This document shows, piece by piece, positions 36,568-53,762 of a DNA stretch of 64,000 nucleotides. The position numbers and the translations under genes are program-made. Each line of letters begins with the position of its first letter. Position 1 is the first letter of the stretch. Origin of the DNA: Chitinophagales bacterium (GTDB taxonomy: Bacteria; Bacteroidota; Bacteroidia; Chitinophagales; UBA10324); NCBI GenBank assembly GCA_013816805.1, contig JACDDS010000001.1, positions 85,001 to 149,000 of the forward strand, given 5' to 3'. The notes beneath the pieces are model-generated. The model was not told where the DNA came from. It saw nothing but the letters and a program-made list of their open reading frames with translations, and ran no database searches.

Positions 36568-38691
36568 ATGAATAAGCAACAATTACAAAAATGCATTGCA
36601 TCATTTAATATATCGGTAAAAAAAGTTGTTTTAATGGCTGTTCTTTTTTTATTGACTGTTACCTATACAAGGGCTCAAATACAGTTTATAGCTCCATTGT
36701 CCGGATCTAAATATCACAATCCTGAACGAAATATCATTATCCGGCCCGGAGCCTTAATTAACCTGTCATCTGTGCAACCTTACTTATTTCAGATTAAAGG
36801 TTCATTAAGTGGGGAACATGAATTTAAACTCAATGTAGCCCTTGATAGCAAAACTATAGTTTTAAATCCATTGGTACCGTTTTCATACGGTGAAGAGGTA
36901 ACCGTAACTCTTCAACAGGGTGTTAAACAGGCGGATGGAAAAACTATAGAACCTTATTCTTTTTCTTTCTTTATTCACCGCCAGTATACACCGGAAGAAC
37001 AGCAGAGAATGGTAGAATTGAGAAACAAGTCTCTAGAGGAAGAATTTATTGACCCCAAACAACAGGATATAACTTCAAACCGGACTGCAAATCCTTACTA
37101 TTCAATTTTGAAAAACACGACCCCTGCATCAGGAAATGTATTCTTCAGTAATTTCAGTTTTTTGGGTTATGACACCCAGCGGCTTTGGATCATAAAAAAC
37201 AGTGGTGACTCCGTATATTCATTAAAATCCAATTCAAAGGGATTTGACTGGAAGCTTAATTTTAATCACTATCTCACTTCTTATGCCTCTGTGGGGTACG
37301 ATGAGTTCGATTCAAACTATGTAAAGATTAAGACCTTTAATCCTGCCAATGGTTATTCAGCAGATGTACATGAATTTTTGATCTATCCGGATGGCCACCA
37401 TTATATGCTCACGGTGGATAATGAAATTGTAGATATGACCGTCTATGATCCTTCATACCAGCCGGAGGCCCTGGTGATAGGAAATGCCATTCAGGAATTT
37501 GACGCTAACGATAATTTGATTTTTGAATGGCGCACAATAGATCACATTGACGTTCCGGAAGCGCTTCATGAAAACCTTGCCAATGGATCTATTGATGCTA
37601 CGCATGCAAATTCTATGGATGAAGATACCGACGGCAATCTTATTGTATCGTTCCGGCATCTCGATCAGGTTGATAAAATTAATGTAAACAATGGCAGCTT
37701 TATTTGGCGTTTAGGCGGGGTTAAAAATCAATTTACGTTTACGAATGATCCTGCACAATTTAATTATCAGCACCATTGCCTCAGGATAGCAAACGGAAAT
37801 ATTACCTTATTCGATAATAACGTTTGGGGCACCCCTGATTTATGCTATGCTAAGGAATATCAGTTGGATGAAGTAAAAAAGAAGGCAACCTTAGTATGGA
37901 GCTATAATCGCCCGGCAGTAAACGGCGTTTCCATGACGAGTTTTGCTATGGGAAGCGTTCAGCGGCAGAGTAATGGTAATACTTTAATTGGCTGGGGAAA
38001 AATTCCATTAGACAGCGGATTGCCCAGCATGACCGAGGTAGATGCTAATAATAATATTGTTTGGGAAATGGAGTACGATCCCACCTATTATGATATTACT
38101 TACCGTGCTCTTAGGTATAACTGGAACCCATGTGCCCGGCCATCTACTCAATTGCTGAATACCTCCAATATAGCTACCACTTCAGCCAAATTAAATTGGA
38201 ATGATGCTACAGGAGCTGTAAAGTATTATGTAGAGTATAGAAAGAAAGGAAATACTAATTGGACGAGCGTCAAGATTAGTTCCACCAAACACTCCTATAC
38301 CGTAACAGGTTTAAGCGCAGGTAAAAATTATGAATGGCATGTTCAAACATGGTGCGATAAAAATGGTAATAAGAAATCAAATTTTACCCCCATCATTACC
38401 TTTAAAACCGATGCTCAAAAGGTAATTGATGAGACTGGTTTTAATGACATAAGCATTTATCCAAATCCGGCACATGATTTCATGCACTTAAGATGGACGG
38501 CTAATAATGAGAATACGACCTCTGCGATAATTACCGATGTGGCCGGCAGGATATTAAAATCTTGGAATTTAAAATGTTCTTATGGTGAAAATGATCAGAC
38601 GATATCTTTAACAGACATTTCACCAGGCATTTATTTTATCAAGGTGCTTACCCCAGATCAGCAACAATTGCAAAAAATAGTGATAGAATAA
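36568..38691 (+). CDS. Arylsulfotransferase-family protein with fibronectin III and T9SS sorting tail
   Basis: A 707-residue secreted protein. An N-terminal signal anchor region (to about residue 36) leads to an Ig-like segment (about 40-135). A beta-propeller of the arylsulfotransferase family follows (about 175-530, with DATHANSMDEDTDGNLIVSF, IWRLGG, YQHHCLRIANGNITLFDN). Then come a fibronectin III domain (about 535-615) and a T9SS tail (SIYPNPAHD... PGIYFIKVL). By family it might transfer sulphate between phenolic compounds, but many propellers of this family have no tested activity. A strong terminator follows. Confidence 0.8.
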   Translation: MNKQQLQKCIASFNISVKKVVLMAVLFLLTVTYTRAQIQFIAPLSGSKYHNPERNIIIRPGALINLSSVQPYLFQIKGSLSGEHEFKLNVALDSKTIVLNPLVPFSYGEEVTVTLQQGVKQADGKTIEPYSFSFFIHRQYTPEEQQRMVELRNKSLEEEFIDPKQQDITSNRTANPYYSILKNTTPASGNVFFSNFSFLGYDTQRLWIIKNSGDSVYSLKSNSKGFDWKLNFNHYLTSYASVGYDEFDSNYVKIKTFNPANGYSADVHEFLIYPDGHHYMLTVDNEIVDMTVYDPSYQPEALVIGNAIQEFDANDNLIFEWRTIDHIDVPEALHENLANGSIDATHANSMDEDTDGNLIVSFRHLDQVDKINVNNGSFIWRLGGVKNQFTFTNDPAQFNYQHHCLRIANGNITLFDNNVWGTPDLCYAKEYQLDEVKKKATLVWSYNRPAVNGVSMTSFAMGSVQRQSNGNTLIGWGKIPLDSGLPSMTEVDANNNIVWEMEYDPTYYDITYRALRYNWNPCARPSTQLLNTSNIATTSAKLNWNDATGAVKYYVEYRKKGNTNWTSVKISSTKHSYTVTGLSAGKNYEWHVQTWCDKNGNKKSNFTPIITFKTDAQKVIDETGFNDISIYPNPAHDFMHLRWTANNENTTSAIITDVAGRILKSWNLKCSYGENDQTISLTDISPGIYFIKVLTPDQQQLQKIVIE

Positions 38692-38709: not shown

Positions 38710-38742
38710 AGCGGTGCTTATAGAAAGAGCACCGCTTTTTTA
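38710..38742. terminator. Terminator between the arylsulfotransferase-like gene and msrA
   Basis: AGCGGTGCT (38710-38718) and AGCACCGCT (38728-38736) are a perfect 9-bp stem with a 9-nt loop and a T run after it. It sits between convergent genes and ends next to the msrA stop. Confidence 0.85.
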
Positions 38743-39423
38743 TTTACCATTACCAATTAGGGAATGACCCTCTTTTACCAAACCAGGTAATTGAGACTGA
38801 AATCTTTTTATGCGGGGAATTGATTCATGCTGCACATAAGGATTAGCTGGATTGTGAGCTATATAATTCTGATGGTAATCTTCAGCTTTCCAAAAAATAC
38901 TAAACGGTATTATCTGGGCAGCAATTGGAGAAGCATATTTTCCTGATTTATTAAGCTCTGAAATATAATTTTCCGCCAATTGCTTTTCTTTTAAACTCCT
39001 GTAAAAAATAATGGATCGGTATTGGGTTCCATGGTCCGGGCCCTGCCCATTAACCTGCGTAGGATCCTCAGCAGCAAAATATACTTTAAGCAGCGTTGGA
39101 TAATCAACTACCGATGAATCATAATATACGTTTACTGTCTCAGCATGACCTGTTGAGCCGGTTTCCACTTCTTCATAGGTCGGGTTTTTTGTTTCCCCGC
39201 CTGCATAGCCCGACACTGCTTCCTGAACACCCTTTACACTTTCAAAAACCGCTTCTTCGCACCAAAAACATCCTGCAGCAAAAGTAGCCTGCTTGTAACC
39301 CGAAAGATCACGTTGTGCATCAGCGATGGAAGATGGTTGAGAAATTACCTTGTTTTTCTGAGCACATGATGAAAAACCGGCCGTTAAAAACAGAACCAAA
39401 AACAGGTTTGATAAATAATTCAT
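38740..39423 (-). CDS. msrA: Peptide-methionine (S)-S-oxide reductase, probable lipoprotein
   Basis: MsrA repairs oxidised methionine in proteins. The catalytic motif GCFWCE (C52) is present, with EVETGSTGHAETV and DPTQVNGQGPDHGTQYRS downstream. The 227-residue form has an N-terminal lipobox (GFSSC, C20), so this copy is probably anchored in the envelope rather than cytosolic. Confidence 0.93.
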   Translation of the reverse strand: MNYLSNLFLVLFLTAGFSSCAQKNKVISQPSSIADAQRDLSGYKQATFAAGCFWCEEAVFESVKGVQEAVSGYAGGETKNPTYEEVETGSTGHAETVNVYYDSSVVDYPTLLKVYFAAEDPTQVNGQGPDHGTQYRSIIFYRSLKEKQLAENYISELNKSGKYASPIAAQIIPFSIFWKAEDYHQNYIAHNPANPYVQHESIPRIKRFQSQLPGLVKEGHSLIGNGK

Positions 39424-39540
39424 GGTCTTAATTTAAAATTTATTTACGGAATATCAATGTCGAAAGATTTAGAAATTGCCAGGTATTTTGCCGCTTTCAC
39501 TTAAAAAAAATTAATGTGATGCCTCAAAGCTATTACATAA

Positions 39541-39576
39541 AAAATCCCGCTCAGGAAAAAAACAAAGCGGGATTTT
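39541..39576 (-). terminator. Terminator after the DUF1579 gene
   Basis: A perfect 11-bp inverted repeat (AAAATCCCGCT and AGCGGGATTTT) with a 14-nt loop lies 20 bp past the DUF1579 stop on the minus strand, ending in a T-rich run on that strand. Confidence 0.8.
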
Positions 39577-39595
39577 ATTATCCTGTTCCAAACGA

Positions 39596-40171
39596 CTATC
39601 GGGTCATCTTTATTTCCATTGTTTTCATTTCCTGGCCATTCATGGTCATGTACATTTCCATAAGTTGTGTATTATCATTTTGAAAAGTGAGCACCTGGCG
39701 CATCATCATGTCTTTTCCCGACATAGGATCATTTGTGACACCTCTCAATTCAATGGATTTATTTTCATCTTTCCAGGTACCTGATAACTGAGACATTCCC
39801 GTACTCATATTATCTACCCAACTGCTATAGAACATTTTAGTGGCATTATTATAGGCCATAAGTCCCATTCCTTCAAACGGTTTCCCCATCATAGTGCCTG
39901 TATATTTGGTGGAAAGGTACCTCCCATCCATCATCATATCGTTCCTTACCTTTGCAGTTGTTTTTGAAGCAGGCTGGGATGGATCCATCCACATGGTAAT
40001 ATCGGCCTTCCAATCACCGACTGATTTAGCCATCATGGCTTGTACTTGGCCAGGCATCATATTAGCCATCATTGCCTGCATATCCGGTTGTGAAGGTTGA
40101 TTCTGCGCGAATGTGCTTCTTGACATACTTAATAACAATAAGATTAACAGTAGTTGGGTTTTTGTTTTCAT
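39596..40171 (-). CDS. DUF1579 family secreted protein
   Basis: A 191-residue protein with a signal peptide (to about residue 22, ending TFAQ) followed by a Met/Gln-rich linker and a DUF1579-type beta-barrel region (VGDWKADITMWMDPS, GRYLSTKYTGTMMGKPFEGMG). Methionine content is unusually high. The function is unknown; the family fold suggests a lipocalin-like binding barrel. It is flanked by its own terminator and an intergenic stretch. Confidence 0.8.
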   Translation of the reverse strand: MKTKTQLLLILLLLSMSRSTFAQNQPSQPDMQAMMANMMPGQVQAMMAKSVGDWKADITMWMDPSQPASKTTAKVRNDMMMDGRYLSTKYTGTMMGKPFEGMGLMAYNNATKMFYSSWVDNMSTGMSQLSGTWKDENKSIELRGVTNDPMSGKDMMMRQVLTFQNDNTQLMEMYMTMNGQEMKTMEIKMTR

Positions 40172-40342: not shown

Positions 40343-40500
40343 TTAAAATAATAATTTAGATACATTATCAATTGATTCACACTTTATTTTAAGTAAGTAA
40401 ATCCCAGGCACGGGTGCGGTAACTCCAAAATTATTGGTTCCTTCTGCAGAATCCGGTAAGTTTTACAACACCTTATCGTCCTTCCTGATTTTGGTTACTA
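40343..40500 (-). pseudogene. Degenerate second T9SS sorting-tail remnant
   Basis: Read on the minus strand up to the stop at 40343-40345, the frame gives NLPDSAEGTNNFGVTAPVP then GIYLLKIKCESI...KLLF, the pattern of the last half of a type A T9SS sorting domain. An in-frame TAA at 40463-40465 interrupts it and no start codon is available. It lies directly downstream of the intact-looking sorting tail of the broken esterase gene. It looks like the leftover of a second cargo gene or a duplicated tail. Confidence 0.6.
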
Positions 40501-40509
40501 AAAATTTAA

Positions 40510-42599
40510 TTAGAATAAAAGTTTTTCAGAGTGAGAGGTGAAGTTTCCTTTTATAGTCACGAGATAGATTCCTTTTCCAGGTGCAGTCAGGTCGAACGAA
40601 CTATCACCGCTGGCAAGGTGTATTTTCTTCTGAAAAACTATTCTTCCCCGCACATCATACATTAGCAAGTCGATAGTTTCGGCCTGATCTGTTTCAAAAG
40701 CAGCAATGTATCCTGAAGCCGATTTTGTAAAATAAAATTGCAAATGGTCTGAATCCTCCGCAGCATCTTTACCGGGTGTGTTCTGGCAATGGGAGATTTT
40801 CAGTGAAAATGATATTTCCGCTCTTATTGACGATCATTCCTTTCAGCGTCATTAAACCTCCTTTGTAAGTAAAGGAGCCACTTTGAATCTTATTGTTAGA
40901 GTTATCAAGATTTTTCCATGTTATGGTGGTACCAGATGATGGCTTAAAATCCTGCAGACGCCGAAACGTGAGATCGGTAGTGCATGTTTTATACTGATCC
41001 TGATCAAGTACTCCGCCTACATAAAAATCTTTTATAAATATATTTACTGAGTAATTGCAGGAATTATCAATTATAGAATCGTCCCAGTCAAGATAGCCAT
41101 TGATAGCGCCATAGGGATCTCCATCATTTTTTGAGCCATTGCCCGGATCCTGATTTATAGAACAATTTGAAAATGCCGGATATGATTTATTGTTTTGATA
41201 GCGGTAGATGTCCGGAGTAGTTTCATCATTAGAAAAATTTTTGCCTCCGCCGCCATGTTCTCTCTGATCCCAATACCAAACACCTCCATAATGGTTGCTC
41301 TGCAGAGAATCAAACCATTCAATCTTTCCATCAGTCCAGCCTACCTTATCATCATTTTTTCCATGAACATCAAAAATTAAGGGAACATCTAATTCGCGGT
41401 TATAATAGGTCATCCTCCGCATATCACTGAGCTTGGTGAATAGCAATGGATCACTGGTTCCTGGAATCAGCACATCAGTATTTAATTTAACAGCGCTGGT
41501 TCCCCATTCTTCCTCATATACCGAAACCCCGTTAGAGCCTATTGAAATTGGTTCTACAATATCATAGACTGCTGAAATTTCTTCAGGATAAATCGCAGCT
41601 GTAAGCAATGCTCCGTATCCGGTATGAGAAGTACCGGTTGTATAAATTCTTGATGCATCGATTGGCAGATGCCGTTCTGCATAATGAACGGATTCAATAT
41701 ATCTTTTTTGCAAATAAGTCTTTACTGTTCCGGTAGTGGGTATTGGATTCTGATCGGTATAAATATTAAAGTTTTGGTGGTAACAACACATGTATGAATT
41801 ATCCCCAAAGGATCCATCTTTCTTTTGAATGGGCAGCCAATCATCGACTAACAGCACATAGCAATTAATAAAATCAGATTTGCCCCCGTTTGCACGGGCT
41901 GCCAATGAAGGGCCATCGTAATGAATGAATAGAGGATAGCTCTCAGCGCTGCCTTTTTTTACGAGTGAAAAATTAAATCCATAAGAGCCCGTACTATTCA
42001 TAGCGGGATAAAGACTGGTCTCCTGATTATTTACAAATTGCGTGTATCTTTTTTTTACTTCACCATTTGACTGAATAATGGAATCCTGGAAAACTGCTTC
42101 TGGTTGTACAATTTTCTCCTTTACAGGAGCCGATAAACTGTTATCACCAGGCAGATTTTTTTTACTTCTGAACCGGTTGAAAGATCAGTTACTGTTACGG
42201 CAAAGTAGTTGAATTCATTATCGGTACACGTAACAGCATACAATCCCTGATTACTCAAAAGCGGATCTCCGTTATCTTTTATTTTGAAAAAGACATCCTT
42301 TGAATCAAGCTGTGAAAGGCGTATATTCTTGGCTGAGTTATCTCTTACAAAACCAAGAAGCAAGGAAGCAGTTAATTGTTTTGGATCTGAAAAAGGTGAC
42401 GCGGAACGGTAAACGTTATACTGCAAGTTGGTTGCATCGGAATTAATCCAGGTAAGGAAAACCTGGCCATTACTATACGTTGCCTTAAGGCCTGATATGG
42501 TGTAAGCAAAGGAATAAAAGGGTAATAAAAAGACACATAAAATGCTAATAAAAAAATGCGCAAAATATGAGAGCGGGCTAAAAGTTGTGAGTGTTTCAT
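40510..42599 (-). pseudogene. Frameshifted secreted alpha/beta-hydrolase with fibronectin III domain and T9SS tail
   Basis: Four pieces in different frames join into one protein. From ATG 42599 a signal sequence (MKHSQLLARSHILRIFLLAF) runs until a shift near 42510-42535. The next frame encodes a fibronectin III-like segment (SGLKATYSNGQVFLTW). A second shift sits at a run of eight T (42156-42163), after which reading resumes as NLPGDNSLSAPVKEK into the hydrolase domain. That domain has nucleophile elbow GTSHTG, an acid loop (DVHGKNDDKVGW) and REHGGGG with the likely catalytic His. A third shift near 40770-40785 separates the sorting tail (GIYLVTIKGN). Neighbouring genes with similar homopolymers are intact, so true decay is more likely than general sequencing error. 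Confidence 0.75.
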
Positions 42600-42812: not shown

Positions 42813-43364
42813 TTATTCCGGTAATGCAAAATCTTCCGGAATTTTTGGAGTTATATTTTTATAAAAGTCCCGGATAATAATAAAATCCTTTTGAATATCA
42901 CCTGAAGGAACAAAGGATGGACCTACACCTGCTTTCTTTTCAGCATAATCCAGATAAGCCATTACTATGGGAACGTCTGCACCGAGGGCAGCGTAATAAA
43001 ATCCTGTTTTCCATTTAGTAACCCGTTTACGTGTTCCCTCAGGAGGAAATACAATAATTGCCCTGTCATTAGATTTAATATATTGAATCATGGCGTCCAC
43101 CATGCTGTTGTTTTGAGTACGGTCCACCGGAACTCCTCCCATTTTAATAAACATGCGCTTGAAAGGAAATTTGAAAAACTCCCTTTTTATTAAAAATTTT
43201 CCTCCGAACCCCAGCCACGCCCGGGCACCTGAACCGTAAATAAAATCCCAACCGCTGGTATGCGGTGCGACCAGCATCACGCATTTTTTAATTTCTGGTG
43301 GCAGATTGTCACCTAACTTCCAGCCTGAGAGCTTATAAAACCATTTAAAAAACAGGTTGAACAA
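42813..43364 (-). CDS. 1-acyl-sn-glycerol-3-phosphate acyltransferase family protein
   Basis: A 183-residue acyltransferase with the catalytic HxxxxD motif in APHTSGWDF (H34 region) and the acceptor-binding FPPEGTRKR. The short length and the KMGGVPVDRT motif are typical of the small Bacteroidota PlsC-like enzymes, which act on phospholipid or ornithine-lipid precursors. It must start at TTG 43364, since an in-frame stop lies just upstream and no ATG exists before the conserved region. Confidence 0.85.
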   Translation of the reverse strand: MFNLFFKWFYKLSGWKLGDNLPPEIKKCVMLVAPHTSGWDFIYGSGARAWLGFGGKFLIKREFFKFPFKRMFIKMGGVPVDRTQNNSMVDAMIQYIKSNDRAIIVFPPEGTRKRVTKWKTGFYYAALGADVPIVMAYLDYAEKKAGVGPSFVPSGDIQKDFIIIRDFYKNITPKIPEDFALPE

Positions 43365-43448
43365 GAAATAGAATTTTTAAAATTGAAATATTCAGTAACC
43401 GTCAAGATAATGAATAAGCCTGTGCCTGCCTTTAATGGTTAGTCCGGT

Positions 43449-43456
43449 TATATTTG
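43449..43456 (+). promoter_or_regulatory. Putative -7 box for the cyclase gene
   Basis: TATATTTG matches TAnnTTTG and ends 9 nt before ATG 43466, implying a leader of only a few nucleotides if used. Confidence 0.4.
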
Positions 43457-43465
43457 TATTCACTG

Positions 43466-44821
43466 ATGGATTTATATAAATATGTAACAACGATACGAAT
43501 CCCTTCCATAGTAAGAAGAATCAAAAGATGGATGTCACCCCGATTTGATCCGGCTTTTGAAGAGCGCTTTCGTGTTGAACTTTCTAAAAGTGAATTGCTT
43601 CGAATTAACATTCTTATCAGGGCCACTATTGCCGGAGCGATTGGAGGTTGCATCAATTTTTTCATAATAAGGGAGGAAAAAGTTTATACTCTTTTAATCA
43701 ATCTCCTGCCGGTATTTTCTATTACTGTTTTAATTTTATTGATATATGAATTTTCTACAAGAGCTTATGTAAAAAAGTGTATTCAACAGAAAAAGCCTGT
43801 TTCAATCTCTTTTCAAATTATTAACCTTATTGCAGAAAGCAGTTTTCCGACTTTAATGATGCTGCTATTGCTGACACGGATGAATACCATTGTATTACTT
43901 TCTACACCGTTTACTTTACTTTATTTTCTATTTATAGTGCTATCAACACTTCATCTGGAATTCCGGCTTTCTGTCCTTACAGGATTTGTAGCAGCAGCAG
44001 GCTATTTTTTAGCAGCTAAAGTTCTAATCCACGTAGTTGAGATTCCGCAGGGAACATCACCATTATTGATATCCACTACCATTATTTTGGGAAGAAGCTT
44101 TGTGATTTTTATTTGCGGAGTAGCATCCGGCTTCGTGGCTCTGGAAATAAAGCGGAGGGTCATAAACACATACCAGGCAGTAAACGATCGTGATCGTATA
44201 CGATTGGTGCTTGGTCAGCACGTTTCACATGCTATTGTAGATCAAATAATAAATGAGAAAAAGGACATACACAATAAACGTTTGTTTGTTGCAGTGATGT
44301 TCCTTGATATCAGGGATTTTACTCCATTGGTTGAAAAACTTGAGCCGGAAGAGGTGCTCGATTTCCAAAATAGATTCTTTGGAATAGGTGTGGAAGTAGT
44401 AAATAAATATCATGGCATCATTCACCAGTTTATGGGTGATGGATTTATGGCGACTTTCGGAGCACCCTTTTCATCCGTAAATGATTGCCAAAACGCAGTG
44501 GATGCGGCATTCGGAATTTTAAAAAAAACGCGGGAAGCAGCAGATCAAAACATATTGCCTTTAATCAGGCTGGGTATAGGAATACATGCCGGAGAGGTGA
44601 TTACAGGAAATATCGGTACGGACCTGCGGAAACAGTATTCCATTGTAGGGAATGTAGTTATACAGGCTGCCCGTATAGAGCAATTGAATAAAGAGTTTCA
44701 TTCCCAACTGCTTATTTCCAGAAATGTTCTGGAAAAAATTAAGAACGAAAATCCTGAGTCTCTTGGTAAAATAAAATTGAAAGGTGAGAGTTCCCTGCTT
44801 GAAATATTTCGTTTGGCATAA
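43466..44821 (+). CDS. Membrane-bound class III adenylate/guanylate cyclase
   Basis: A 451-residue protein with about six transmembrane helices (roughly residues 48-225) and a cytosolic class III nucleotidyl cyclase domain. Both metal-binding aspartates are present: D281 (FLDIRDFT) and D325 (MGDGFMATFGAP), as is transition-state arginine R403 (AARIE). The positions that choose the base and stabilise the reaction differ from the classical set: Q321 where a lysine is usual, S392 where Asp/Thr is usual and I399 where Asn is usual. I start it at ATG 43466; a TTG lies 12 nt upstream. It converges with the TPR hybrid kinase. The product could be cAMP, cGMP or something else. Confidence 0.85.
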   Translation: MDLYKYVTTIRIPSIVRRIKRWMSPRFDPAFEERFRVELSKSELLRINILIRATIAGAIGGCINFFIIREEKVYTLLINLLPVFSITVLILLIYEFSTRAYVKKCIQQKKPVSISFQIINLIAESSFPTLMMLLLLTRMNTIVLLSTPFTLLYFLFIVLSTLHLEFRLSVLTGFVAAAGYFLAAKVLIHVVEIPQGTSPLLISTTIILGRSFVIFICGVASGFVALEIKRRVINTYQAVNDRDRIRLVLGQHVSHAIVDQIINEKKDIHNKRLFVAVMFLDIRDFTPLVEKLEPEEVLDFQNRFFGIGVEVVNKYHGIIHQFMGDGFMATFGAPFSSVNDCQNAVDAAFGILKKTREAADQNILPLIRLGIGIHAGEVITGNIGTDLRKQYSIVGNVVIQAARIEQLNKEFHSQLLISRNVLEKIKNENPESLGKIKLKGESSLLEIFRLA

Positions 44822-47494: not shown

Positions 47495-48256
47495 TTAAAA
47501 CTTAAATAGTTTAAGCTCATCTTTTTTAAGTAGATATAATCTGTTCCGCTCAATGCTAATATCCATTATATCAATTGAGTCGGGAAGTGTTATCTTTTGT
47601 TCCATTATTGTTGTTACCTGATAGGTGTGAAGAGCGTTCTGAACACGGAATAAGACCTGGTCGTTACGCACCTGGAATTTAGTGATATTTTTAAATGGAA
47701 GTGTTTCTTTATAAATTCCGTAATTGTCAAATATTAAAATACCAATATCTGGATCGGTTATATATACATATTGATCCCGTTCCCGCATGTAGGAGGGATG
47801 GACCGCTTTTCCAATTAATGAAAACATATCACTGCTTTCCAGTGAAATGGCATTATTACGGTCAATTTTTTTTAGCTTATAGTCCTGTTCATCGAACACC
47901 CAAACGGAGTTATCGCGGGAAGCAACACAAGCCACATTAAAATTCAAAATACCAATTTGTCGCAGCCGCATTACAGACAGTTCTGATAAGGTATTATCAA
48001 CCATTACTATTGTTCCATAATCCGGATAGGTAAGTATAATTTTCAATGGATCTGTAGCATCTACAGAGCGTAGAGAGCCGTATAAATTCTGGTTGTAAGT
48101 AAAAAGGATATTGCCTGCAGAATCCATTTTTACGAGCGAGCTGTTTCCGGAAATCAGATAGGCATTCTGTAAATAATCCGTAGTAATAAATGAAGCATCG
48201 ATCTTTACAGAGATTAAAAAAATAAAAGACAGTATAACGTTGACAGCAGGAAGCAT
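47495..48256 (-). CDS. Secreted beta-propeller-like protein of unknown function
   Basis: A 253-residue protein with an N-terminal signal sequence (MLPAVNVILSFIFLISVKIDA). The body is built of repeated strand-turn units such as VKMDSAGNILFTY, VWVFDEQDYKLKKID and YITDPDIGILIFDNYG, which suggests a small beta-propeller. I do not recognise a named family. It lies 72 bp downstream of the MoxR gene on the same strand and may belong to that operon, placing it in envelope biology. Confidence 0.65.
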   Translation of the reverse strand: MLPAVNVILSFIFLISVKIDASFITTDYLQNAYLISGNSSLVKMDSAGNILFTYNQNLYGSLRSVDATDPLKIILTYPDYGTIVMVDNTLSELSVMRLRQIGILNFNVACVASRDNSVWVFDEQDYKLKKIDRNNAISLESSDMFSLIGKAVHPSYMRERDQYVYITDPDIGILIFDNYGIYKETLPFKNITKFQVRNDQVLFRVQNALHTYQVTTIMEQKITLPDSIDIMDISIERNRLYLLKKDELKLFKF

Positions 48257-48328
48257 ATAAATTTAATAAGCTTAAATGTACTTCCAATTCTGCAGGCTTA
48301 TCTCAAGGTGATAAATAATGAGGTCAGC

Positions 48329-49312
48329 TTATAATATTTTTTGAACAATATCTTCAACAGAAATACCATCTGCCTCAGCTTTGTAGTTACGAACAATACG
48401 GTGGTGTAGAATAGGGGCAGCTACAGCCTTAACATCTTCTATGTCCGGTGAGTATTTACCATTAATAGCTGCATGACACTTTGCGCCTAAAACCAAAAAT
48501 TGGGATGCCCGCGGACCAGCCCCCCATGACAGGTAATTATTAATAATGGCAGGAGCTTTTTCAGTGTTAGGCCTGGTTCGCCTGGCAAGTGAAACCGCAT
48601 ATTCCAGAACATTATCAGCAACAGGGATTTTTCTTACCAGTTGCTGAAAAAAAAGAATATCATCTGCTGAAATGATTTTCTGCAGAATTGACTGACGCGC
48701 GCTCGTAGTATTTTTCACCATTTGCACTTCCTCATTCATATTCAGATAATCCAAAGTAATATTAAACATGAACCTATCTAATTGCGCTTCAGGAAGCGGG
48801 TACGTGCCCTCCTGTTCGATTGGGTTCTGGGTTGCAAGTACAAAAAACGGAAGCTGCAGCAAATGTAACTGACCGGCAAAGGTTACCGACCGCTCCTGCA
48901 TTGATTCAAGCAACGCTGCCTGTGTTTTAGGAGGTGTTCTGTTAATTTCATCTGCAAGGATAATGTTTGCAAAAATCGGCCCTTTATTAAACTGAAATTG
49001 CCTCGCTTCGTTTAAAATTTCTGAGCCAATAATATCACTCGGCATCAGGTCTGGTGTAAATTGGATGCGCTTAAAGCTTAGATCAAGCACGTCAGAAATA
49101 GTTTTTACTAAAAGTGTTTTTGCCAAACCCGGAACGCCTACCAATAAACTATGTCCATCACAGAAAATAGAAATGAGAACGAACTTTACCACTTCATCCT
49201 GGCCTATAATAACTTTATGAATTTCCGAAGTCAGTCGTTTATAGGAGCTTGCCAAACCGTCTACTGCAGCCGCATCAGACTGAAATGTTATTGTTGAGTG
49301 TTGTATGTCCAT
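48329..49312 (-). CDS. MoxR family AAA+ ATPase
   Basis: A 327-residue AAA+ chaperone-like ATPase. Walker A is GVPGLAKTLLVK, Walker B is IILADEINRTPPK, with sensor ATQNPIEQEGTYPLPEAQLDRF downstream. MoxR proteins assist maturation of partner complexes, usually with VWA or DUF58 proteins encoded next door; here the preceding genes are SurA-like chaperones and the DUF58 gene is elsewhere. It overlaps the 3' end of the SurA-like gene by 25 bp, implying translational coupling. Confidence 0.93.
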   Translation of the reverse strand: MDIQHSTITFQSDAAAVDGLASSYKRLTSEIHKVIIGQDEVVKFVLISIFCDGHSLLVGVPGLAKTLLVKTISDVLDLSFKRIQFTPDLMPSDIIGSEILNEARQFQFNKGPIFANIILADEINRTPPKTQAALLESMQERSVTFAGQLHLLQLPFFVLATQNPIEQEGTYPLPEAQLDRFMFNITLDYLNMNEEVQMVKNTTSARQSILQKIISADDILFFQQLVRKIPVADNVLEYAVSLARRTRPNTEKAPAIINNYLSWGAGPRASQFLVLGAKCHAAINGKYSPDIEDVKAVAAPILHHRIVRNYKAEADGISVEDIVQKIL

Positions 49313-50643
49313 TTGTCTAAAACCTTACATGTTTGAAATTCCGGTTCTATAAGAATATATGATTTCGAAATACGGTCCTTAAGCCAGCTATTTACGGCTT
49401 CATCCTGTTTTTTCGCAAGAGTAAGACCGGATATTTTATCGTAATCATCTCTCAGGTTTGCCTGATGCGGTCTTGATTTGGATTTCAAATAGATGAGTCG
49501 GAAGCCCGTTTTCCCTTGTTTATCGTGAAATATGGTAGGCTTTGAAACGGCTCCTACCTGCAGCGTATCTGTGGCAGTAACCAGGCTTTGATCATAGGTA
49601 CCAAGATCACTTATATTGAATGCGGAAGTTTGGCTTGCAGGGTTTATAATCATACCGCCATTATTTTTTGATCCTTCGTCCTCACTGAACTTGCTAACGG
49701 CTTCAGCAAATGATGATTTTCCCGATTGAATCAGATAATAAGCGCTATCTGCCAGCTTACCTGCATTCGTGAGATCATAAGAGGTAGTTTTCGGCTTAAT
49801 AAGAATGTGCCGGACATTAATACGATCACCCCGCCGCTCGATCAATTGCATAATATGAAACCCAAAAGCTGATTCTATAATATTAGAAATATCATTAGGG
49901 TTTTTAAGAGAAAAGGCAGCAGCTTCAAAAGCCGGATCCAGCTCACCCCGGTTTACAAATCCTAATTCTCCACCTTTATCCGCTGAGCCTGGATCTTCTG
50001 AATAAGCACTGGCCAATGCTGAGAAGTCTTCTCCGTTCTTAATCCGTGTTAATAGATCTTCCGCTCTTTTGTAAGAATATTCTTTCATCTCAATACTCAC
50101 CTTAGGGTAGATAATTAACGCGCCAAGTTCTTCCTCCGCATTATAGTAGGGTAAGCTATCTGTAGGAATGCTATTGAAGAACTGCTGGACATCTGAAGGA
50201 GTAACTTTTATGTTAGTAATTATGTTTCCCTTTTCTTTATTCGCAATGAGTTGTTCCCTGATCTGGATTCTGAATTCATCCTTAATTTCCAGAATGGATT
50301 TACCATAATACTCTTCTAATTTTTCCACGCTTCCAGCCATGCCTGAAAAAGAACGTACCCGGTGATCCAGCTCATTTTCTACTTCATCATCACTCACAGT
50401 TACACTATCAATTACTGCCTGAGCTATAAGAAGCTTTTCTATAAGGAATTGGTTTAAGATTTCACATTTGAAATCGGCCGGCACTGGTAAAGTACTTTGA
50501 TAAGCATATTGCTGGTATTGGGCTTCCACATCTGAAAGAAGTATGATGCGATCATCTACAATGCCCACCACTTTATCAATCACTTTTTGGGCTGATACAA
50601 TGGTGGTGATAAGAAATAAAAATATAATAATTATAATGCGCAT
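49288..50643 (-). CDS. surA: SurA-like periplasmic peptidyl-prolyl isomerase
   Basis: A 451-residue outer-membrane-protein chaperone. After a signal peptide (ending VSAQ), a SurA N-terminal domain begins KVVGIVDDRIILLSDVEAQ. Two parvulin domains follow, the first with YSEDPGSADKGGELGFVNRGELDPAFE and GFHIMQLIERR, and the second, with INVRHILIKPK, more divergent. It is the third of three tandem folding factors and overlaps the MoxR gene. Confidence 0.88.
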   Translation of the reverse strand: MRIIIIIFLFLITTIVSAQKVIDKVVGIVDDRIILLSDVEAQYQQYAYQSTLPVPADFKCEILNQFLIEKLLIAQAVIDSVTVSDDEVENELDHRVRSFSGMAGSVEKLEEYYGKSILEIKDEFRIQIREQLIANKEKGNIITNIKVTPSDVQQFFNSIPTDSLPYYNAEEELGALIIYPKVSIEMKEYSYKRAEDLLTRIKNGEDFSALASAYSEDPGSADKGGELGFVNRGELDPAFEAAAFSLKNPNDISNIIESAFGFHIMQLIERRGDRINVRHILIKPKTTSYDLTNAGKLADSAYYLIQSGKSSFAEAVSKFSEDEGSKNNGGMIINPASQTSAFNISDLGTYDQSLVTATDTLQVGAVSKPTIFHDKQGKTGFRLIYLKSKSRPHQANLRDDYDKISGLTLAKKQDEAVNSWLKDRISKSYILIEPEFQTCKVLDKWTYNTQQ

Positions 50644-50646
50644 TAA

Positions 50647-51513
50647 TTACTTTTTCGAAGCATAAATTTCAAAATCATTCCTCTGCATGGCATCTTCATA
50701 AATGCTTTTATGAATGCCGCTTATCAGTGTCAGCTTTCTTTTATTAATAATAAGATTTCGGATTTCTTCCTTTACAAAACTAAGAGGTGCAATATTTCCT
50801 TTAGTACGGTATCCTCCAAACTTTACGAGGTAAGCATACTGTGAATCCGGTACTTCGATGTATTTATTATTATATTTGATGAAGCTAAAATTAATCTTTT
50901 CAACAGGAAGCAACGCGGCTACTTCCTGCATATTGTACCATTCGCTATCCCCGATAGCATAATTTATCGCGTACTGTTTACAGAAGCTTCGAAGTTTGGT
51001 GAAATTAAAATCATTAGGATGATTGATCCAAATACGGACTGAGTCAAGGCTTATAACGGTTGTCAGTCTTAATATTACGTACTTCATCCGGACAATATCT
51101 TCTTTTAACTGGAATGTTTCCAAATGGTTTTTAAAGTAGCTATAGACTTCAGAATCATTTACGGAAGTATCGATTTTTTCCTGAAGAAGTGCTTTTTCAT
51201 ATAGATATATTTCAAGGGATTCTTTGTAGTCACGAAGCTGATCATTCAATTGCCGTTGATCGGCGGGCAAATTTTCTTCGGCATAATGCACGATAAGATT
51301 ATGGCGAATCCAGCTGTCAATATAATTTTTAACAAGCTGCAAACTATCTAATGGTGTGGCAGCATCTTTACCTATCCCCTCAATATCAGATTGGTACAGG
51401 TATTTGTCAAATGCACGCGCAATTGGGGTTTTTTCATCTTTTATAGCCGGATGGTAATTGTTGCAGGAACATAACAGAGCAATAAGAAAAAAGCAGTCAA
51501 AAGGAAATTTCAT
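50647..51513 (-). CDS. SurA-fold lipoprotein lacking evident isomerase motifs
   Basis: A 288-residue lipoprotein (signal ending LLCSCNN, modified Cys at about residue 15 or 17). The helical region (residues 40-120) resembles the SurA N-terminal chaperone domain, but the parvulin signatures seen in its two neighbours are absent. It lies between them with spacers of 3 and 30 bp, so it is almost certainly translated from the same mRNA and probably assists outer-membrane or surface protein folding. Confidence 0.7.
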   Translation of the reverse strand: MKFPFDCFFLIALLCSCNNYHPAIKDEKTPIARAFDKYLYQSDIEGIGKDAATPLDSLQLVKNYIDSWIRHNLIVHYAEENLPADQRQLNDQLRDYKESLEIYLYEKALLQEKIDTSVNDSEVYSYFKNHLETFQLKEDIVRMKYVILRLTTVISLDSVRIWINHPNDFNFTKLRSFCKQYAINYAIGDSEWYNMQEVAALLPVEKINFSFIKYNNKYIEVPDSQYAYLVKFGGYRTKGNIAPLSFVKEEIRNLIINKRKLTLISGIHKSIYEDAMQRNDFEIYASKK

Positions 51514-51543
51514 GCTTATTCACAGTACTATAAAAAGAGTGTC

Positions 51544-53523
51544 TTATTTTTTAACAATACTTTGAAAAACCTGCTCATTGATTTTCACGGGATATTTTTG
51601 TCTAAGATCCGCAATCCATTTCTTTTCAAGATTTTCCTGATAATCTGCCACTACATATCCTTTTACATCGGTCAATTGCTTAGGAGCAGGTGGTAAAATG
51701 CTTACAATTTTCATTATTTTAAACACAGAATCGGAGTTTACTGTATATGTAGTGCCAGCCGTTCCCCAACCGAGTTTTTCAATTTCTGATTCTTTACCCT
51801 TTTCGAATTCTGCTGTCGCAATTGTAAGGTTTGTTTTTCCTTTACGGTTTAATTTTGAAAGCAGATCATTATCGCTACTATTTTTAGCCATATATTTCTT
51901 GAGATCTTCTTCACAGTCCTTATTTTTACACATGTAAGTAGTTACCTGAGCCCTTTCCTGCCCCATATAATTATTTTTTCCTGCCTCATAGAAAGTTTTT
52001 AATCCGGTTGTATCTTCCACTGCTTTTGTCCATACCTTATCACTTGCCAGATCAAAAAGTAATATACCATTCATGTATTCTTCCATCAAGTCTCTGAAAG
52101 GGGGGTATTTTGATTCCAGGCGCGCATCTTCAAAGTTACCAGCACTTGCAAGCACAAAGGCATCGTAAAGTTTATTGTACATGCTTTGCAGCCCACCCTG
52201 GTTCAAAAATTTACGCTGATTTTTTAAAATAAAGTCTGCAAAATCCTTTTGAGTATAGCTTTTTTTCTCCGGAACCCATTTGGTATCTGTAAATGTGAAA
52301 AGCACATCATTCATATTCATCATCGCAGAATCATTCCAGTTACCTTTCAGCAGTGATGAATCCATTTTCGACATCAGGACTTTCTTCTTTTCAGGGAACT
52401 CAGTAAACCTGTATTCTTTTTTTACCTGGTTTAAAAACGATTGTTTTGCATATTCTGACCACGGACCATTTTCTACCTTTTTCTTAATGTCGTCCCGGGT
52501 TTGCTCATAGGTGCCAATTGGTTTTTTTTCAATCAGCTTAATAATATGCCATCCAAATTTCGTTTGAACAGGTTCTGACATATCTCCCGGATTTTTTAAC
52601 GCAAATGCCACGTCTTCAAACTCGCCAACCATTTGTCCGGTACCGAATGATGGCAATTTTCCACCATTTGCGGCTGATGTTTTATCCTGTGAATTCTGCT
52701 TTACCAAGTCATCCCAGCTGGCGCCATTCTTTAATGCCTGATATAAAGAATCAATTTTTTGTTTGGCTTTGGTTTTATCCTCGGAGGTAGCGTTTTGCGC
52801 AACTTTTATAAATAGATGTGATGCAGTTATCATTCCCCGTGAGTGTCTAACATCAAGAACTTTAATTAAATGATATCCAAAACGGGTACGTACAATAGTC
52901 ATTTTACCGACCGGGGTGCTGTAAGCTGCAGTTTCAAACGGATATATTACCTGCAGGGCAGTTATATATCCTAAATCTCCCTTATTGTCTTTGGCTGATG
53001 GATCACTCGATGAATCAGCAGCCAGCGTATTGAAATCTTTTTTTCCTGATGTTATTTGATTTTTCCAGTTAGTAATGCGTTTATAAGCTTTTAACGTGTC
53101 AGCCTGGGAAGCATTGGGATCAAGCTTCAGCAAAACATGTTCTATATGTACATCTTTCTGCATGCGGTTATAAGCTTGTCTCAGTATGGTAGTATCAAAC
53201 ATGTAAGCTGGTGTAAGCTTACTGCGGTATGTTTTAAATTCATTTAACACCGCCGCTGTAGTGTCCATCTTCATATCGCGGGACTGCTTTACTTTTAAAC
53301 GGAAATTCACATAAAGATCAAGGTAATCACGAAGTGATTTTTCACTAAAATCTGCCTCACCGCTTACATTGGTTTTTTGATAGACCTTCACAAATTCATC
53401 TTTTGTAACCTGTTCACTGCCAATAGTAAACAATACCGGATTTGTGGTTGAAGGAGCCTGAGCAAAACTTTCAGAGAAGATTAATAGGGTGATTAAGCCC
53501 GTAAGCAGGACAATCATTTTCAT
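51544..53523 (-). CDS. Periplasmic peptidyl-prolyl isomerase with two parvulin domains
   Basis: A 659-residue exported folding factor. I choose ATG 53523, giving signal peptide MKMIVLLTGLITLLIFSESFAQ; a frame open to 53592 adds a non-signal extension. After a SurA_N-like region, two parvulin domains are clear: IEHVLLKLDP ... DLGYITALQVIYPFE and ASHLFIKVAQ ... NGGKLPSFGTGQMVGEFEDVA. A long C-terminal region (about 390-659) has no recognisable domain. A TAGGTTTG -7 box lies about 40 nt upstream, making this the likely first gene of the operon running into MoxR. Confidence 0.85.
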   Translation of the reverse strand: MKMIVLLTGLITLLIFSESFAQAPSTTNPVLFTIGSEQVTKDEFVKVYQKTNVSGEADFSEKSLRDYLDLYVNFRLKVKQSRDMKMDTTAAVLNEFKTYRSKLTPAYMFDTTILRQAYNRMQKDVHIEHVLLKLDPNASQADTLKAYKRITNWKNQITSGKKDFNTLAADSSSDPSAKDNKGDLGYITALQVIYPFETAAYSTPVGKMTIVRTRFGYHLIKVLDVRHSRGMITASHLFIKVAQNATSEDKTKAKQKIDSLYQALKNGASWDDLVKQNSQDKTSAANGGKLPSFGTGQMVGEFEDVAFALKNPGDMSEPVQTKFGWHIIKLIEKKPIGTYEQTRDDIKKKVENGPWSEYAKQSFLNQVKKEYRFTEFPEKKKVLMSKMDSSLLKGNWNDSAMMNMNDVLFTFTDTKWVPEKKSYTQKDFADFILKNQRKFLNQGGLQSMYNKLYDAFVLASAGNFEDARLESKYPPFRDLMEEYMNGILLFDLASDKVWTKAVEDTTGLKTFYEAGKNNYMGQERAQVTTYMCKNKDCEEDLKKYMAKNSSDNDLLSKLNRKGKTNLTIATAEFEKGKESEIEKLGWGTAGTTYTVNSDSVFKIMKIVSILPPAPKQLTDVKGYVVADYQENLEKKWIADLRQKYPVKINEQVFQSIVKK

Positions 53524-53561
53524 AGGGGAAAAGATTTTGATTATAGCGATTTTAAGAGGCG

Positions 53562-53569
53562 CAAACCTA
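53562..53569 (-). promoter_or_regulatory. Putative -7 box for the parvulin-MoxR operon
   Basis: The minus strand reads TAGGTTTG, matching TAnnTTTG, about 39 nt before ATG 53523. It supports the downstream start choice. Confidence 0.4.
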
Positions 53570-53762
53570 CATGAATTCATTTCAATACGCAAATGGTATT
53601 TATTATAATCCTATGAATGTCAGAGAAGAGCTTCCATATTTTGATCCGGCAAAGCTATCACATGACTTAGTTTATATATGTTTCAGAAAAGCTTTTGGTG
53701 ATTACAGTACGAACTTATAACGCGAAATAGACAGCACTAACTCAGAGCATTCAGGAACTGAT

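Follow-up and report, generated by a model that had tools for sequence, protein, structure and literature searches.

Among the described systems closest to the locus studied here is the ordinary frameshift pseudogene, the singleton class in the cited passages of PMC3711429, with which it shares breaks at unconserved sites, occurrence in one lineage and intact homologues elsewhere. In contrast to that class, three breaks are found in one gene here and the stub of a neighbouring copy lies beside it. According to the same passages, many single, BLAST-validated frame breaks are expected to be sequencing errors, and surface and secreted proteins are frequent in large clusters of frame-broken genes (PMC3711429). 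According to part of another report, assembly artefacts account for many purported pseudogenes of bacteria (PMC11017572).

With respect to the encoded enzyme, an intact orthologue finds its best fold match among esterase D / S-formylglutathione hydrolases (PF00756), with which it shares a GxSxxG motif and the order of Asp and His. However, identity amounts to 11-15% in the best rows, and FN3, beta and T9SS domains are extra here. Extracellular short-chain PHA depolymerases of type 1 (NF050058) and PHB-depolymerase-family esterases are matched weakly, around the nucleophile elbow. The Bacteroidetes PET-active esterases PET27 and PET30 are, in the cited part of their description, likewise secreted serine esterases with a TIGR04183 tail (PMC8767016); the likeness is one of description, not of sequence, and PET activity is not implied here. 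Among the literature matches listed, we found none on the present esterase family, which is not a claim of absence.

A hydrolase gene in four pieces

The window, that is the whole stretch of 64,000 nucleotides analysed, contains on its minus strand (42599-40510) four pieces in three frames that, when aligned with intact relatives, give one protein of about 700 residues, with a signal peptide, an FN3-fold domain, an alpha/beta hydrolase, a second beta domain and a T9SS tail in this order. The proposal of the initial annotation that four minus-strand frames make up one coherent protein was borne out, as the joined pieces reach family length and align end to end with intact relatives. Piece 1 (42557-42599) consists of the start codon (ATG at 42599) and the basic n-region of the signal peptide, its residues resembling the n-region of intact orthologues. 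Piece 2 (42157-42507) encodes the FN3-fold N-terminal domain and is 44-61% identical to 20 relatives. Piece 3 (40769-42157; 462 codons, stop at 40769-40771) encodes the alpha/beta hydrolase and is 58% identical to the intact orthologue L009, and likewise to L010; over a 410-residue hydrolase ORF these two, from genomes G009 and G003, are the closest relatives with 60 and 59% identity, respectively. The first ATG, GTG or TTG of this piece occurs only at 42001, inside the domain fold. The codons for the nucleophile-elbow Ser (41627-41629), the Asp (41351-41353) and the His (41255-41257) of the hydrolase motifs, with positions read by eye, are all retained, and the read-through pieces are free of internal stop codons. 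Piece 4 (40510-40803; stop at 40510-40512) completes the beta domain and adds a T9SS type A sorting tail, as judged from its match to Por_Secre_tail and from the tails of the family.

The breaks were placed by frame-aware alignment to nine relatives. Break 2 was put at 42150-42165 by all nine, in agreement with the earlier assignment to the run of eight T at 42156-42163 (an A8 tract on the coding strand). Break 3 was placed at 40807 with seven of the nine relatives and at 40813 and 40804 with the remaining two; the frame change precedes a conserved stretch that is retained in the other frame, and there is no long homopolymer at the site. The break reported by the initial annotation therefore exists, but the interval given for it (40770-40785) lies too far downstream. 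Break 1 was required in only two of the nine alignments (at 42536 and 42518), since signal peptides vary. Nevertheless, the FN3 frame lacks an ATG, GTG or TTG upstream of 42426 and the fitting start at 42599, with its basic n-region, is in another frame, which locates break 1 within about 42511-42557, inside the signal peptide and in an interval that includes a T7 run (42550-42556). The position of the start codon thus requires the break that had been assigned to 42510-42535, although its place is less sharp than that. When a frame-switch model was applied to the broken gene, only break 2 was recovered under the strictest penalty; break 3 appeared under both of the lower penalties, and break 1 went undetected throughout.

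A/T tracts are common places of replication slippage and are also the usual places of sequencing errors. Apart from the tracts mentioned, the broken gene carries an A8 at 42049-42056 and an A7 at 41954-41960. At the aligned site of break 2, an A/T tract of at least seven was absent in 14 of the 14 relatives checked, and those relatives that have tracts of 7-8 carry them elsewhere, within open frames; break 2 therefore does not sit at a conserved slippery site of the kind associated with programmed frameshifting or phase variation.

The tail piece matched Por_Secre_tail with an E value of 9.4e-6 and 26.3 bits, just below the Pfam cut-off of 27, and 21 of 22 relatives matched TIGR04183 (E <= 0.1). 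The same genome encodes SprA (2498.6 bits versus a cut-off of 200) and at least 150 T9SS tails; among the 150 tails scored, two, counted by eye, stand in open frames of less than 150 codons. With a C-terminal tail at the end of the protein and a genome that has a T9SS, the joined product has the properties of a T9SS type A cargo, and its intact form would be directed by the signal peptide to the periplasm and by the tail to the cell surface or the medium.

Downstream of the broken gene, outside the coordinates covered by the initial annotation and overlooked there, we found a stub of a second esterase copy on the minus strand (40343-40462), in which the final 39 codons of a T9SS tail are followed by a stop. 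Compared with 23 family tails, the stub reached a best score of 85, the maximum of 1000 shuffles being 43, and the T9SS tail of an unrelated gene (36568-38691) scored 39 in this comparison. At the level of DNA, the stub is no copy of the tail of the broken gene. In G009, two intact copies of the broken gene's clade stand in tandem, so the simplest reading is that a tandem pair formerly existed here as well and that the stub is the remnant of its second member, lost by deletion. The gene at 36568-38691, near the broken gene, encodes an arylsulfotransferase-like (ASST) protein with FN3 and a T9SS tail.

Fold and family of the hydrolase

The intact orthologue L009, modelled from 22 relatives, gave a mean pLDDT of 85.9, and esterase D / S-formylglutathione hydrolases were the nearest structural neighbours of its hydrolase domain (Z 18.7, rmsd 3.2, 251 aligned). 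Ser325, Asp417 and His449 (S325, D417 and H449 in L009 numbering) are invariant in all 22 rows and the broken copy keeps all three; from motif and order these would be the putative catalytic residues. The predicted structure of L009 combines an esterase D-like fold with the Ser-Asp-His order; the intact form would be a putative esterase. By sequence, no Pfam family was found for the hydrolase ORF of the window at E 0.001 and no PF00756 match for L009 at E 0.01, a threshold at which 9 of the 22 relatives did reach PF00756 (Esterase). The PHA-depolymerase model NF050058 (NCBIfam) was matched weakly around the nucleophile elbow by 21 of 22 relatives (best E 3.3e-7), and membership in this family of extracellular PHA depolymerases was rejected, L009 reaching 20.1 bits versus a curated cut-off of 150. 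Searched by sequence against solved structures, the hydrolase piece gave a best E value of 0.38; the family profile matched esterases at E 2.7e-4.

For the N-terminal piece, a model with a pLDDT of 93.8 was obtained, and its structural matches (VIA rows) were mostly FN3 or FN3-like, the best match having a Z of 8.5 and an rmsd of 2.1 with 79 of 117 residues aligned. Foldseek returned no match for this piece at E <= 0.001, nor was there a sequence match to Pfam fn3 (PF00041). The fibronectin III-like segment noted earlier is thus upheld by the predicted fold but not by a Pfam match.

Ten intact paralogues are present in the same genome, each as one open frame of 683-755 residues, and the closer six are 44-49% identical to the broken gene. 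Some of the members in this genome stand in tandem (C15, C12). An intact paralogue, L006, lies at G000:C1:150132-152225, about 1.1 kb past the right end of the window and about 23 kb from the broken gene. Within the taxonomic family, 8 of the 16 genomes, counting the own genome, have members of this enzyme family, which is found in none of 24 genomes from other families of the order. Elsewhere in the phylum, none was found in 395 genomes besides the own one, an absence that is soft because only two candidates per genome were scored; a scan of genome contigs yielded a single distant relative only. As sampled, the enzyme family is restricted to one bacterial family. T9SS-tailed esterase-D-like hydrolases are expanded in G000, G001, G003, G004, G007, G008, G009 and G011, with 6-15 matches each.

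In a tree of 25 members, which included 7 of the 10 intact own-genome paralogues, the broken gene and eight intact genes, drawn from six further genomes of the family, formed a clade supported at 100/100 that contained no own-genome paralogue. The broken gene's branch of 0.6 is on the long side of this clade, not strikingly so; among the relatives compared, there was no other genome of the genus. Comparison of the stitched protein with its relatives, as suggested in the initial annotation, found the gene intact in them, both in the open same-genome frames and in the orthologues of six other genomes. In G001 and G008, the orthologue is located directly before a methionine sulfoxide reductase gene (MsrA). 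The orientation is the one found in the window; there, the broken gene and MsrA are separated by a DUF1579 gene. In G009 and G003, the orthologue is near homologues of window 47498-53610.

Background of frame breaks in the genome

In order to estimate how often frames are broken, the frame-switch model was run over the window and fifteen 20-kb stretches of the same genome, 364 kb altogether. At the strictest penalty, only the broken gene and an SDR gene (L032:18464) were found, and lower penalties added one more convincing case, a T9SS cargo (L040:6269), giving two other convincing frame-broken genes in 364 kb. The SDR oxidoreductase gene is split at L032:18457-18524 (G000:C5), and its pieces match PF00106 at 1-76 and 65-190. 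In the T9SS-tailed cargo (L040:6224-6275; G000:C1) the signal peptide is in another frame, and no homopolymer of five or more is nearby. Eight further matches at lower penalties (window 56548, L028:1946, L029:13912, L038:18915, L040:1396, L043:3089, L043:14099 and L044:13285) were judged false by their open frames; by eye they seem to reflect an end effect, adjoining genes or an excursion of the model within an ORF that is intact. Of 59 simulated breaks, the model detected 16, 30 and 40 with the three penalties. Rough hand arithmetic, based on two events and corrected by 30/59, gave a chance of about 2e-6 that three breaks would cluster at random within 2.1 kb.

Within ORFs of at least 200 codons there are 92 A/T runs of eight or more and 155 of exactly seven. 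The T8 near 2271, cited earlier as an intact run, is indeed so, since positions 2271-2278 fall within an uninterrupted ORF of 1126 codons. Taken alone, the homopolymer argument is weak, given that an A/T tract marks one of the breaks and perhaps a second. However, with two other broken genes in 364 kb and 92 long runs in open frames, poor sequence in general was rejected as an explanation. The preference of the initial annotation for decay of a T9SS cargo gene over poor sequence is therefore supported, on the grounds of the low background, the ten open paralogues and the adjacent stub.

Of 47 columns that are invariant in 22 relatives, 44 are kept in the broken gene, and one of the three departures is an artefact of the placement of break 3. 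When each relative was left out in turn, 13 of 22 departed at none of the invariant columns and 6 of 22 at two or more, and fresh decay and error look alike in this respect. The lack of internal stops, together with three departures at 47 invariant columns, indicates either a gene that died recently or a miscall.

Decay, sequence error and other readings

Relative to intact homologues the reading frame is interrupted, as in a pseudogene, and we consider the best explanation to be, with a probability of about 0.78, that a redundant tandem locus for esterase-D-like hydrolases exported by the T9SS has recently undergone pseudogenisation. The breaks would then be present in the organism and not only in the assembly. 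The main rival is a local sequencing or assembly error: the cell would carry an unbroken gene, and the consensus would be wrong at all three sites, perhaps in a stretch with low coverage or a mixture of strains. The A8 at break 2 and the T7 in the break 1 interval would suit such an error, as would the preserved catalytic motifs and invariant columns, the absence of internal stops and the frequency of pseudogene artefacts in assemblies, as stated in part of PMC11017572. However, break 3 is away from long homopolymers, the neighbouring genes (38740-40171 and 42813-44821) are open, the background of frame breaks is low in spite of the many long A/T runs in long ORFs, and the adjacent stub reflects a deletion and not a base-calling fault, so that we regard an error as rather unlikely.

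The tracts could also serve as a switch, in that changes in A/T tract length or slippage of RNA polymerase turn the gene on in some cells or transcripts, and this we hold to be highly improbable. Runs of A over 7 are slippage-prone according to the cited passages of PMC3711429, and besides the A8 at break 2 and the T7 in the break 1 interval the gene offers the two further tracts at 42049-42056 and 41954-41960. However, the relatives lack the tract at the break 2 site, and a single switch could not bring back the tail, there being no long tract at break 3; at most, slippage might rejoin the first pieces and yield an occasional secreted, tail-less hydrolase beside the ten tailed paralogues, for which we see very little likelihood. 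It is scarcely credible that the gene has been split, with the 462-codon piece now expressed by itself as an enzyme that stays inside the cell: this piece is open and spans the whole catalytic domain, yet a product starting at 42001 would lack the first strands of the fold, a signal peptide is missing, and such a short form is absent among the ten paralogues.

Under recent pseudogenisation, decay may have begun with a slippage-type change in the length of an A/T tract or with loss of the second copy by deletion, whereupon selection would have been relaxed, with ten paralogues remaining, and further indels would have followed; the neighbouring copy would have been deleted down to its last 39 codons. 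Signal peptide, FN3 domain, catalytic domain and tail would now be set apart by the three frame changes, of which one coincides with an A/T tract and a second may do so. Both this order of events and redundancy as the reason for the loss are proposals; with ten intact paralogues left, the cell could probably afford to lose this copy. As the complete catalytic domain has neither a start codon nor a joined export signal, the product is almost surely either not made or not exported, and an active exported enzyme is not to be expected from the broken gene.

The pseudogene is an ordinary one, probably real and recent, and belongs to a group of secreted hydrolases that is lineage-restricted and has expanded in tandem. 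On this reading, the locus would represent the end stage of turnover in tandemly expanded secreted enzymes, in which only the tail stub is left of one copy, another has just been broken and ten persist. With regard to function, the lineage-restricted esterase family, of which the hydrolase piece in the window lacks a Pfam match, is the part worth following. Some family matches occur in much longer open frames of about 900-1480 residues.
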